This document shows positions 35,827-39,392 of a stretch of DNA of 39,392 nt, one piece after another (positions within the stretch are counted from its first letter, which is position 1; each line of letters starts with the position of its first letter). This DNA comes from a virus: IMG/VR virus record IMGVR_UViG_3300023181_000183, positions 1 through 39,392 of that record, one strand, 5' to 3'. The notes under the pieces were generated by a model. That model did not search any database. It had not been told where the DNA came from and saw only the letters and a program-made list of their open reading frames with translations. The translations under genes and the position numbers were made by a program.

Positions 35827-36263
35827 TGGTCCGCGTGGAAACTGACGCGGCGCTGGTGAACAGCATTACCAATCACCCTAAGGTGCTGCCCTACATTTCC
35901 CGCAACGGCGAGCCCATCGACTGGACGCCAGCAATTGAGCATCCCGACTGCATGATCCTTTCGAACGGTGAGGATGCTTGCATGGTTCTGGAACGGACCG
36001 CGCCTCGGGATTGGCAATGCACCACGATATTCGGGAAGACATGCCGGAACCAAAGGGCTGTGGAAACCGGCCTTGCGATGAAGGATTTCATGATCCCCGA
36101 ATATGCTGACATGGTGTTCGGTTCGATACCGTCCCGATATCGCCATGCCCTATGGTTTTATGGCGCGCTCGGTGGTATCCAGATACCCGAAGTTGAAAGC
36201 GGTGGTGAACGCTACGTTGCGCAGGATGGCGAGACGTTGTTTGTTTTGAGGAGTGAAAGTTAA
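35826..36263 (+). CDS. P22 gp14-position protein, GNAT-like fold possible, 145 aa
   Basis: The start MVRVETDAALVNSITNHPKV is followed by LERTAPRDWQCTTIFGKTCR and AVETGLAMKDFMIPEYADMV then YRHALWFYGALGGIQIPEVE. The layout (short helix, beta strands, helix with R.R.A...., YG..) is like the inactive GNAT-type DUF2824/gp14 group of P22-like phages, needed for infectivity. It lies between the gp10 cluster and the gp7-like gene, as in P22. Start shares its A with the preceding stop (TGATG). Confidence 0.6.
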   Translation: MVRVETDAALVNSITNHPKVLPYISRNGEPIDWTPAIEHPDCMILSNGEDACMVLERTAPRDWQCTTIFGKTCRNQRAVETGLAMKDFMIPEYADMVFGSIPSRYRHALWFYGALGGIQIPEVESGGERYVAQDGETLFVLRSES

Positions 36264-36970
36264 TGGTTGCTCCAATGGTTGCCGCAGCGGGACTTTCGGC
36301 GCTTGGCTCTGTCATCGGCGGTCTCACTGGCGGCAAGGGTGCTGCCAAGGCGGCGAAACTTCAGGCCGACTCCACCGCAAAGCAGATCGGCTATCTCACC
36401 GACAACCGAGATTTTCAGTATGGCCTCAACCGTCCTACGATTGATCGAGGCAATGCCGCTGGCGATCTCTACGGTAATTTCGTCGGACTATCGGGCGGCG
36501 ATGCGGCGGCGAAAGCGCTTGAAACCTTTCGAGGCTCGACGGGCTATCAGGACCTGCTCAGGCAGGGGCTGGGGGCCGTAAACTCCAACGCCTATGCGGG
36601 AGGCACCGCTCAAAGCGGCGCAACGCTGAAGGCTTTGCAGGATCGTGGTTCTCAGATTGCCAACAGTTCGGCCCAACAGTGGCTCGGAAATCTTGGTCAA
36701 CTCCAGCAGTTGGGGCAGGGCGCGGCGGGTCTTGTGGCAGGCGTCGGACAGAATACCGTCACAGGCATGAACAACGCTACACAGACCGCTACGGATGCCT
36801 CCGGCAATGCCGCGATTATCGGAAACAATGCGTGGCAGAAGGCTTTGCAAGGAGTGTTTAATTCCGGCGCTCAGGCGTTTGGGTCTAGCTACGGCGGCGG
36901 CGCTTCTGGCGGCTTGAACCCGCTTCAGGGCTATTCCTTCAACGGCTCCATGAACCGGGGGGGCTGGTAA
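36263..36970 (+). CDS. DNA transfer/ejection protein, P22 gp7-like
   Basis: The 235-residue protein begins MVAPMVAAAGLSALGSVIGG with a hydrophobic Gly-rich helix, then AAKLQADSTAKQIGYLTDNR, ALETFRGSTGYQDLLRQGLG, AGGTAQSGATLKALQDRGSQ and LGQLQQLGQGAAGLVAGVGQ. The series .FR.STGYQ.....G......G...SGA.LKAL..RG is typical of phage DNA transfer proteins. Size equals P22 gp7 (229). It would leave the virion with the genome. Confidence 0.8.
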   Translation: MVAPMVAAAGLSALGSVIGGLTGGKGAAKAAKLQADSTAKQIGYLTDNRDFQYGLNRPTIDRGNAAGDLYGNFVGLSGGDAAAKALETFRGSTGYQDLLRQGLGAVNSNAYAGGTAQSGATLKALQDRGSQIANSSAQQWLGNLGQLQQLGQGAAGLVAGVGQNTVTGMNNATQTATDASGNAAIIGNNAWQKALQGVFNSGAQAFGSSYGGGASGGLNPLQGYSFNGSMNRGGW

Positions 36971-36971
36971 G

Positions 36972-37700
36972 TTGGCGATTGATTTCCGGCTCGATCAATC
37001 AGGTTTCGACCCGATGGAGGTGCTTAAGTCCTACGGCATGGGCAGGGATATGGCACGCCAGGACGGCGCGCGCACCTCGCTTGCTGGCCTTGTGGCCGCC
37101 CCGAACGACCGGAATGCGCTTCTCCAATATGCCCAGTTCGATCCCCAGGGGGCGATGGGATACCAGCAGGATCAGGCCAAGGCCCAGCAGACGCGACAGA
37201 AAGAGGTTGCGCAGTGGGTCGGTCAAATGGCTCCGCAGATCAACACCCCTCAGGATTGGGAGGCAGCGGTAGATTGGGGCGTGTCCAACGGCTACCCCGA
37301 AGCAGAGCAATATCGCGGACAGTTCGGCAATAAGGCGGCTATCATGGCCGCTGGCGGGGTTAAGCCTCAAAACGAAACGCAGAGCGCTCTAGAGCGTGAG
37401 TACGAATTTGTAGAGCGTGTCCGTCCGGGCTCTGGTAAAACTGTGATCGACAATCGGCTAGACCCCATTGTCAACATCACGGAATTTGATCCGCAGTCTA
37501 ACCAGTACATCACGCGCGGCGTTCCCCGCAGCCAGCTTACGGGTGGCGCTGCGCCTCAGCAGCAGCAATCCCCACCGCCTTTGCCACAGGCTGGCGAAGT
37601 TCGTGGGGGTTATCGTTTCCGTGGCGGGAATCCTGCTGATCGCAATGCTTGGGAACCAGTAGGAGGTCCGAGCCAGCAAGGCTCGGGTAACTTTCCCTGA
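36972..37700 (+). CDS. Internal virion/ejection protein, gp20 position; upstream part of a +1 frameshift product
   Basis: The TTG start follows a GGGGGG run. MAIDFRLDQSGFDPMEVLKS, ALLQYAQFDPQGAMGYQQDQ, WEAAVDWGVSNGYPEAEQYR and a Gln/Pro-rich part (QQQQSPPPLPQAGEVRGGYR) describe an internal virion protein like those after gp7-type genes. The frame ends ...AAC TTT CCC TGA. Reading on in the +1 frame from CCC joins it to an M15 peptidase domain, giving about 330 residues. Both forms might be made. Internal virion peptidases help DNA cross the murein. Confidence 0.75.
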   Translation: MAIDFRLDQSGFDPMEVLKSYGMGRDMARQDGARTSLAGLVAAPNDRNALLQYAQFDPQGAMGYQQDQAKAQQTRQKEVAQWVGQMAPQINTPQDWEAAVDWGVSNGYPEAEQYRGQFGNKAAIMAAGGVKPQNETQSALEREYEFVERVRPGSGKTVIDNRLDPIVNITEFDPQSNQYITRGVPRSQLTGGAAPQQQQSPPPLPQAGEVRGGYRFRGGNPADRNAWEPVGGPSQQGSGNFP

Positions 37701-37703
37701 GCC
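37668..37703 (+). promoter_or_regulatory. Candidate programmed +1 frameshift site
   Basis: The stop of the 242-aa frame is UUU CCC UGA (37692-37700). A tRNA on CCC could slip to CCU, the same overlapping-proline site (CCCUGA) reported for Listeria phage PSA. A perfect 7-bp hairpin CCGAGCC/GGCTCGG (37668-37674 with 37680-37686) stands 8 bases upstream, and an AGGAGG (37661-37666) lies before it. Downstream AGCC (37700-37703) can pair with GGCT (37719-37722). Confidence 0.6.
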
Positions 37704-37965
37704 GTCAAGCTTACAGGGGGCTAATTGGACTAGCGGCAGGCGCACGGTGAAGGGAAATAGGGCGGTAGGAGGACAGCCAAATTCACGGCATCTGACCGGG
37801 GACGCGGCGGACTTCACCCCAGCAAGGGGCCAAAGCCTACAGGAGTTGGCGCGAGAGGCAAGGGCACGGTGGCCTAAGGCTAGAGTGATTGTTGAGGATG
37901 ACCATGTGCATGTTCAGCAACCCGGCTGGAATGTACCGTACCACGGACGAAGAGGCACACAATAA
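37699..37965 (+). CDS. M15-type peptidase domain, probably translated by +1 frameshift
   Basis: The segment read from 37699 is EPSSLQGANWTSGRRTVKGN, then RAVGGQPNSRHLTGDAADFT and ARVIVEDDHVHVQQPGWNVP. SRHLTGDAADF (zinc His and Asp) and DDHVHV (zinc His) place it in peptidase M15 (PF08291 type), in which W.SG.R....N..VGG precedes SRH. The only in-frame start codon is GTG 37747, which would lose WTSGRR and has no ribosome-binding site. So the domain is most likely the C-terminal end of the preceding protein, made through the shift at 37695-37700. Its stop overlaps the next ATG. Confidence 0.65.
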   Translation, partial: EPSSLQGANWTSGRRTVKGNRAVGGQPNSRHLTGDAADFTPARGQSLQELAREARARWPKARVIVEDDHVHVQQPGWNVPYHGRRGTQ

Positions 37966-39392
37966 TGGGCACCCCCTATCCCGGCGAAGTTCGCGGCCCT
38001 TGGGATGACTACGGCCCGTCGCCGTCACCTGTCCCGGCGGCGCCGCGCCAAGGTGGTGGCATTGTCGTTCGACCCGGTCCGACAGCGCCCCAGCCCTCTC
38101 CTCAGACTGCTACTCAGCGCGCCCTCGATGAAGCGAGGCTTGAGGACGCTCGCAGAAAGGCGTCGGCCCAGCAGGCTAGCGGGGGCGTTGACATTGGCGC
38201 AGAGCAGGGCCGCGTTGCCGGTTTCTACGGGCGCGCCCGAGAGGCCAACGAAAACTATGGCTCCATTGGGGCGGGTCCGCGCAGTCTGATGGGGCAGTGG
38301 TCGCAGGACAATATCCCCAACATCGACAATGAGTATTTTATTGACGACAAGTCGCGTCAAGCCAAGGTCTGGCAGGACGACTTTATTGCGGCCACTCTGC
38401 GTTATGAATCGGGTGCAGCCGTCCCCCCCGATGAGCTTGAGAAGCAGCGTAGGCGCTATTTCCCTATGCCGGGGGACGACGAAGGGACTATGGCGGCTAA
38501 GGCGCAGTCGCGCGCCAATGCCATTGCAGGGCTACAAGTTGCGGGCGGTCCGGTATCTCCGGTTGTCGATGACCGGCTAAATGCTGGCGGCACTGCTCTA
38601 GAGGGTGCCGCTGGCGATGGCTTCCAGCGCGCCGCCGCTAATGAGCGGGTTGCGTTCGGAGATGAGCGCCAGCCCTTGCAGTCGCGGCAGTACACCCAAG
38701 AGCAGGGTTCTCAGATCGAGGGCCTGCTGCGCGCTGGCCGTCTTGACGACGCAATCCAGCTTTCGCGTGATTTCGGCATTCCCCTCGATCCAGCATCGAC
38801 GCGTCGGACCATGGAGGCATTGCGCCGAAACCCAAACGCTGCGTTTCCCGGTTTCAACTATGGGCCCGCTGACAGAGCCCTTCAGGAAGAGGCCGACTTG
38901 GAGCGTTACGGCACCTTCCGCGATGAAGCCCGACAAAGCCGGGATACGGCCATGGGCATGGTGGATTCGGGTATTCGGCAGGCGGCTAATTCCCCTACGC
39001 TTGGCCTCGCTGACATCGCTTCCGCTGGTATTGACGCAGCCTTTACCGACAGGGATTTTCGCACCGCTCTACAGCGCCAGCGTGCGCTAACCGAAGCTGA
39101 TTACGAGGTAAATCCCGTAGCAGCCTGGACGGGCACCATCTTGGGCGGAGCGCGGCTCCCTACCCGTGCGTTCCAGAGCGGGCAGGCGGCTCGTGATGCC
39201 GCGCTGGCAACGGGCCTTGGCAATCGCGGCGCTCAAGGTGCGCGTGAGGCGGCGGCGATTGGCCGTCGGGCCGGGGCTCGGCGCTTTGCTGGAGAGAGTG
39301 CAGCGTATGGCGGTGCGCAGGGCGTCATCGGCAACATCGAGAACCCTAGCGACGCGGTGACGCAAGGCGCTGCTGGTGCGGTAGCTGGCGCG
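37965..39392 (+). CDS. Large ejection protein, N-terminal part (gene cut by window edge)
   Basis: The first 476 codons of the gene whose end is at 2-1117. The start ATG shares its A with the previous stop (TAATG). MGTPYPGEVRGPWDDYGPSP begins a flexible Pro-rich arm, followed by helical, Ala/Arg/Gln-rich sequence (AQQASGGVDIGAEQGRVAGF) and Gly/Ala-rich stretches at the end (GAAGAVAGA). This corresponds in place to P22 gp16, which forms part of the ejection channel. No lytic transglycosylase motif was seen here, so the murein-cutting role probably belongs to the M15 domain just upstream. Confidence 0.75.
   Translation, partial: MGTPYPGEVRGPWDDYGPSPSPVPAAPRQGGGIVVRPGPTAPQPSPQTATQRALDEARLEDARRKASAQQASGGVDIGAEQGRVAGFYGRAREANENYGSIGAGPRSLMGQWSQDNIPNIDNEYFIDDKSRQAKVWQDDFIAATLRYESGAAVPPDELEKQRRRYFPMPGDDEGTMAAKAQSRANAIAGLQVAGGPVSPVVDDRLNAGGTALEGAAGDGFQRAAANERVAFGDERQPLQSRQYTQEQGSQIEGLLRAGRLDDAIQLSRDFGIPLDPASTRRTMEALRRNPNAAFPGFNYGPADRALQEEADLERYGTFRDEARQSRDTAMGMVDSGIRQAANSPTLGLADIASAGIDAAFTDRDFRTALQRQRALTEADYEVNPVAAWTGTILGGARLPTRAFQSGQAARDAALATGLGNRGAQGAREAAAIGRRAGARRFAGESAAYGGAQGVIGNIENPSDAVTQGAAGAVAGA

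Follow-up and report, generated by a model that had tools for sequence, protein, structure and literature searches.

A gene for a DNA ejection protein near the 3' end of the virus record IMGVR_UViG_3300023181_000183 very probably ends in a programmed +1 ribosomal frameshift at the sequence UUU_C, by which, judging from the sequence, some ribosomes would continue into the frame of an M15 peptidase and produce a 330-aa fusion of the ejection protein with this enzyme. The window analyzed here is the whole of this virus record (39,392 nt), which is grouped with the IMG/VR records. We further consider it probable that the window and its relatives represent an undescribed class of natural bacterial +1 elements (GGAGG, a covarying 5' hairpin about 4-5 nt from the P-site codon, and UUU_C), in which the hairpin, reforming behind the ribosome, drives the slip. 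Phages would use this element interchangeably with -1 slippage or in-frame fusion, arming a fraction of the ejection protein with exchangeable murein-cutting domains. The features of the locus are as follows.

36263 to 36970, plus strand: adjoining upstream ejection-protein gene, in the position of P22 gp7 (PHROG phrog_598 'DNA ejection', E=4.4e-17; gene order)
36972 to 37700, plus strand: zero-frame ORF of 242 aa, second ejection protein, in the position of P22 gp20; the short product (gene order; C-terminus akin to F116 gp58)
37608 to 37661, plus strand: conserved C-terminal signature GYRFRGGNPADRNAWEPV; the protein of most relatives ends right there (WEKI/WEKV stop)
37662 to 37666, plus strand: Shine-Dalgarno-like GGAGG, 30 nt before UUU (family conservation)
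37668 to 37686, plus strand: 7-bp RNA hairpin with a 5-nt loop, placed 5' of UUU_C (covarying across 30 distinct sequences; synonymous-shuffle z=-2.7)
37692 to 37695, plus strand: putative slip site UUU_C, at which tRNA-Phe would re-pair from UUU to UUC (present in every +1 locus)
37698 to 37700, plus strand: UGA that ends the zero frame; together with the CCC before it, it forms CCC_UGA, another possible +1 site (sequence)
37693 to 37965, plus strand: M15 zinc peptidase domain of 90 aa, C-terminal part of the predicted 330-aa fusion (PF08291; AlphaFold2; Foldseek; conserved zinc ligands)
37747 to 37965, plus strand: ORF beginning at GTG 37747, the earliest start-like codon; would drop the first core strand
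37965 to 39392, plus strand: third ejection-protein gene, in the position of P22 gp16, running off the window; its start overlaps the M15 stop (TAATG)

The genes upstream of the ejection block form a P22-like podovirus set (terminase, portal, coat and head closure), with a P22-type portal gene (PF16510, 3.5e-84), a coat gene matching phrog_334 and a head closure Hc3 gene matching phrog_578. The three ejection genes match P22 genes 7, 20 and 16 by position: the 242-aa ORF sits between the gp7-like and gp16-like genes, 3' of the portal, coat and head-closure genes, and the local gene order is the same in relatives. Homology of the 242-aa protein is confined to its last ~90 residues, which resemble the C-terminus of phage F116 gp58 / phrog_11341, and its assignment as gp20 is one by position. 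Seven other N-terminal parts, scanned against PHROG, matched no family. The ORF starts with TTG and its 3' end reads GGT AAC UUU CCC UGA; an earlier reading of the DNA made without database searches (the sequence-only reading) had described this frame and its last codons, with correct coordinates and letters.

The signature GYRF(K/R)GG(N/D)PxDxNxWE is widespread at the C-terminus of these ejection proteins (window 37608-37661; L016-L124). When a first motif scan was run with the signature alone, 66 of the 67 loci had no M15 domain downstream, the exception being L064, and nearly all of these 66 terminate at once after the signature. It occurs twice in tandem in L096 and L109, with the next gene fused on, and is followed in L037 by a different in-frame tail of ~45 residues (SAASGAPSPPNTIARSAYQAWIRELGQ...).

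The +1 frame, which is open from 37663 to 37965 and encodes ...FPEPSSLQGANWTSGRRTVKGNRAVGGQPNSRHLTGDAADF...VEDDHVHVQQPGWNVPYHGRRGTQ, contains the motifs SRHLTGDAADF and EDDHVHV and has no ATG, GTG or TTG before GTG 37747; the sequence-only reading had listed the open frame, both motifs (the second as DDHVHV) and the lack of an earlier start codon. It matches Pfam Peptidase_M15_3 (PF08291) well beyond chance, with E=1.6e-11 and 44.7 bits (family cut-off 23.2), profile positions 1-45 being absent. Modeled with AlphaFold2 from the F residue at 37693, it is predicted to fold as a complete domain (mean pLDDT 91.2), for which the top PDB match in Foldseek is the Zn DD-peptidase 1LBU (prob 1.00, TM 0.64 on the query, E only 7e-3); phmmer likewise finds 1LBU. 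Among 37 sequences the zinc ligands His33, Asp40 and His73 are invariant and the catalytic Glu68 is present in at least 90%. The predicted fusion junction reads NF-PEPSSLQGANWTSGR. In 25 M15 members, the ten codons after UUU_C differ per pair by 2.61/1.46/5.32 at +1-frame positions 1/2/3, a pattern that indicates protein-level constraint in the +1 frame straight after the slip.

We identified 52 non-redundant viral loci (the window and 51 others) with a single layout, in which GGAGG, a 6-8 bp hairpin, a few bases and UUU_C are followed by an enzyme in the +1 frame. To gather relatives, we scanned for patterns that combine the signature with an extended tail and searched with the fused-product alignment A1. 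The cassette scan required GGAGG and, 20-39 nt later, UUU_C; the zero frame had to be open over a long stretch up to the site and to stop early, and the +1 frame had to stay open over a long stretch beyond it. The scan returned 56 loci, from which four false ones (unrelated frames) were removed by hand. GGAGG precedes UUU by 30 nt in 46 of the 52, by 27 nt in 4 and by 33 nt in 2. Neither the GGAGG at 37662-37666 nor the conservation of the order GGAGG, hairpin, UUU_C in dozens of viruses was part of the sequence-only reading. The enzyme is an M15 peptidase in 45 of the 52 loci, the window included, and an SLT lytic transglycosylase in the remaining 7 (L085, L088, L123, L128, L180, L182, and L183). 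Five M15 and five SLT members analyzed with Pfam matched PF08291 and PF01464, respectively, although L127, an M15 member, scored slightly below the family cut-off. As SLT takes the place of M15 at the same junction, the enzyme module appears to be exchangeable.

Since the cassette scan itself demands GGAGG and UUU_C, a set chosen by protein similarity alone provides a fairer test. In this set, all M15 loci with the peptidase neither in frame nor in the -1 frame have GGAGG and UUU_C at the family spacing, with the exception of L179. Inspection by eye explains this exception: the M15 domain of L179 is encoded in frame in the first part of the next ejection-protein gene (L179:3060-3500, where the ejection protein ends WEPVQ-stop without a cassette and M15 is found near the N-terminus of the following gene). 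In L126, L137, and L163 the cassette is separated from M15 by an inserted mobile segment (NIDLHSRPIVRNRDGSISTVRS...), and L010 has a similar segment close to where the next gene starts.

Outside these records, matches were scarce. At the DNA level the 34-39 kb region matched none of the phage records, and one DNA pattern scan on the M15 C-terminus gave nothing either. Searches of phage and plasmid collections by tblastn with P0002 and the fused L120 product recovered no family member, only distant M15 endolysins and peptidases. None of 50,697 phage records searched with the fused L120 product (tblastn) contained a family member or close relative, so that all members known here come from IMG/VR virus records. 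L133, L135, L139, L140, and L176 carry genome numbers in the IMG style and are probably prophages of isolates. When 398 genomes from one bacterial phylum were sampled using the M15 alignment, one distant locus was recovered, L211, in which M15 is fused in frame within a 528-aa ORF that has a similar kind of N-terminal part.

The window hairpin (CCGAGCC-AGCAA-GGCTCGG) is perfect over its 7 bp and lies exactly where it had been placed by the sequence-only reading. Against synonymous-codon shuffles the mean z over the 52 loci is -2.37, and one member, L178, has no hairpin by this measure. For 30 distinct cassettes sharing one loop register, 98.1% of cells are paired, vs. 66.5% in shuffled and 36.7-40.5% in slid controls, and the covariation score is 0.763, vs. 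0.173 shuffled and at most 0.118 slid. All 7 pairs covary, with 53 cells changed on both sides; further members have a 4-base loop and a shifted register. The stem ends a few bases 5' of UUU, typically 4-5. A 3' stimulator found no support, the 60 nt after UUU_C being less structured than shuffles (mean z +0.64), and Rfam gave no relevant match. A covariance model of the cassette, run over 0.99 Mb of mostly non-member phage DNA, gave full-length matches to the window (a training row) and the in-frame relative L126 only, as well as one partial match (E 6). A conserved signal and a candidate stimulator, as expected of +1 frameshifting, are found together here, in the form of GGAGG, its spacing and the covarying hairpin.

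These data also bear on the possibility that the window contig contains a sequencing error or a decayed pseudogene. The record is of a metagenomic type and a one-base error would suffice to separate the frames, but the same +1 arrangement recurs in 51 other non-redundant loci, together with a covarying hairpin and conserved catalytic residues, and we regard this explanation as extremely improbable.

UUU_C is common to all 52 +1 loci and allows cognate re-pairing in the +1 frame. UUU is followed by CCC in 28 loci, by CGC in 15 and by another codon in 9; this next codon is a sense codon in all of them, and several zero frames stop only many codons later. UUU accounts for 19% of the Phe codons upstream and GGA for 13% of the Gly codons, so that the UUU and GGA of the cassette depart from the codon usage nearby. 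That the codons following UUU show no obvious rarity counts against a slip. According to a review, UUU followed by a pyrimidine (UUU_Y) is especially +1-prone in bacteria (PMC5009743), and UUU_C is the frameshift site of influenza PA-X (PMC3498833).

The sequence-only reading had instead placed the slip on CCC_UGA, where tRNA-Pro would move from CCC to CCU with the stop codon in the A site, as in tsh of Listeria phage PSA, and UUU_C would be incidental. CCC_UGA is indeed present in the window, and as either site gives the same protein (F-P-E), the window sequence alone does not separate the two. UUU CCC UGA is moreover the commonest arrangement in the family, and precedents have been described for PSA tsh and pheL (PMC5009743) and for the CCC_UAA of SPP1 (PMC6316719). 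As a family trait, however, CCC followed by a stop at the shift is limited to 18 of the 52 loci: 15 read UUU CGC, 9 have neither CCC nor CGC and several stop many codons later, while UUU_C occurs in all. CGC_UGA is unable to slip as CCC_UGA can, which points to UUU_C as the common slip site. We therefore consider a slip on CCC_UGA unlikely as the general mechanism.

Instead of a ribosomal +1 slip, transcriptional slippage or a very short bypass might be at work, but this appears very improbable. Bypassing in T4 gene 60 involves a 5' stem-loop (PMC5009743), which would fit such an event. The interval in which slippage is required has no homopolymer run longer than 3 nt, however, and homology resumes directly after UUU_C, with no coding gap in the comparisons.

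Programmed +1 frameshifting at UUU_C is further supported by relatives that reach the same fusion by other routes. Comparison with related phages, which the sequence-only reading had proposed, identified four that fuse both parts in one frame with the cassette kept (L131, L148, L126, and L163). In L163 the site reads UUUUC, and its domains are identical to those of the +1 locus L165. In six relatives the peptidase lies in the -1 frame (L087/L099, L135, L142, L172, L173, and L187). All six have zero-frame CCU UUC after C, that is, the canonical heptamer C_CCU_UUC, with GGAGG 24-27 nt upstream of it, and as a group they show no hairpin beyond shuffles (mean z -0.32). This absence fits an upstream hairpin that favors +1 and hinders -1 shifting; in designed reporters, a hairpin placed upstream raises +1 and lowers -1 shifting (PMC3639245).

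On a tree of the domain, the three decoding modes need at least nine changes, six of which are forced by well-supported branches; the tree is poorly resolved, with few columns and many open forks, and the window copy sits on a long branch of unsure placement. With at least six changes of decoding mode, the fusion looks like a conserved trait, and indifference to the decoding route is, at the level of sequence comparison, the trace expected from selection for the fusion product. The same variation of route is reported, in a review, for Ig-like extensions of phage coat proteins (PMC5009743). In L131, L148, and L126 a ribosome slipping +1 would meet a stop within 2-3 codons; these in-frame relatives could thus also make long and short forms, a suggestion that is post hoc.

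The peptidase might alternatively be a separate protein, translated from an internal start at GTG 37747 or at some non-standard codon, for which GGAGG would serve as the Shine-Dalgarno sequence. GGAGG is a strong Shine-Dalgarno sequence, and the +1 frame of many relatives contains start-like codons ahead of the domain, from which translation may begin. Yet 47 of the 52 loci lack a start codon within 15 nt of GGAGG, and six, including the window, have no ATG, GTG or TTG in the +1 frame before the junction, a test that is weaker for the remaining loci. In the AlphaFold2 model the first core strand comprises domain residues 11-14, in agreement with the earlier claim that residues ahead of GTG 37747 belong to the domain, and this codon corresponds to residue 19. 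Initiation there is therefore predicted to remove the first strand, which argues against a separate start. The in-frame and -1 relatives make sense as fusions only, and no relative with a separate intact peptidase gene turned up in the comparisons. Internal initiation is therefore very improbable. Taken with the 52 +1 loci, the covarying 5' hairpin and the canonical site of the -1 relatives, these results support the proposal of the sequence-only reading that a programmed +1 frameshift joins the M15 domain to the ejection protein.

In the mechanism that we propose for UUU_C, most ribosomes would complete the ejection protein and terminate at UGA 37698. Others, while UUU (37692) occupies the P site, would shift one base forward, tRNA-Phe pairing with UUC, and would then read the +1 frame, adding the M15 peptidase domain of 90 residues. 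While the ribosome moves past, the hairpin may refold at the mRNA exit, and either pull on the mRNA or block backward slipping. GGAGG might pause the ribosome or supply an anti-Shine-Dalgarno contact; its distance to UUU is 25 nt and would be ~5-6 nt with the hairpin formed. This spacing is far from the 3-nt optimum of prfB, GGAGG is also kept in the -1 class, and its role is the least certain part of the proposed mechanism. In members with UUU CCC UGA, CCC_UGA may contribute.

A minor, C-terminally extended form of a structural gene product is typical of phage frameshifting. We infer that the virion protein would exist in a short major and a long minor form, the latter cutting murein during DNA ejection. 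The long form would bring an enzyme that cuts peptidoglycan into the periplasm along with the ejected proteins and so open the murein for DNA entry. The sequence-only reading had the fusion present in virions at low copy and opening murein, which is plausible. A role in peptidoglycan cutting during ejection is suggested by the exchange of M15 and SLT at the junction and by L179, where M15 lies at the beginning of the following ejection protein.

Already known are +1 frameshifting in phage structural genes and UUU_C itself, and a class of UUU_C +1 signals was predicted in 2012. The present family is a natural, covariation-supported candidate for this predicted class, with dozens of variants, and its hairpin-free -1 relatives (C_CCU_UUC) match the reporter finding that a 5' hairpin favors +1 and hinders -1. 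In the literature covered (most subscription papers and bioRxiv lay outside its scope), we found no earlier description of the cassette, of frameshifting in ejection proteins or of upstream hairpins in phages. A natural +1 signal with a hairpin just before UUU does not seem to have been described. P22-like phages would gain from it a way to carry a muralytic domain in a controlled ratio; for annotation, the family is a warning that enzymes of this kind are being split from their virion protein.

Among known systems, +1 frameshifting in phage structural genes has been reported for tsh of the Listeria phages PSA, A118, and A500 (PMC5009743) and for gp17.1* of Bacillus phage SPP1 (PMC6316719). 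In these phages, a +1 shift at the end of a structural gene yields a minor C-terminally extended virion protein, as proposed for the window, and the direction of the shift in the Listeria coat gene is +1 or -1 depending on the phage, as in the window family. They differ from the window family in that the slip codon is Pro CCC (CCC_U) with an adjacent stop and the extensions are Ig/FN3-like rather than muralytic, and the passages covered mention no covarying 5' hairpin for them. Influenza A PA-X (UCC_UUU_CGU) shares the P-site slip of tRNA-Phe from UUU to UUC and a next codon that begins with C (UUU CGU, compared to UUU CGC and UUU CCC in the window family), but has a eukaryotic host, no evident stimulator and very low efficiency. 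The prfB (RF2) signal is alike in its +1 direction and its upstream internal Shine-Dalgarno-like element; it uses CUU_UGA, with the Shine-Dalgarno 3 nt away and a stop in the A site, whereas the window has this element 25 nt from UUU, the hairpin in between and no stop directly after UUU. T4 gene 60 and the reporters of Cho et al. 2013 (PMC3639245) share with the window family a 5' hairpin that refolds behind the ribosome and favors forward movement. T4 gene 60, however, skips a coding gap, which the window family does not, and the reporters are designed +1 constructs in yeast, with attenuation of -1, while the window family is a natural element. P22-like phages lack a muralytic ejection-protein domain according to a review (PMC8954989). 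The N-terminal transglycosylase of T7 gp16 is, like the M15 domain, a muralytic domain on an ejection protein, but it is encoded in frame, whereas the M15 domain of the window would be added to another ejection protein by frameshifting.
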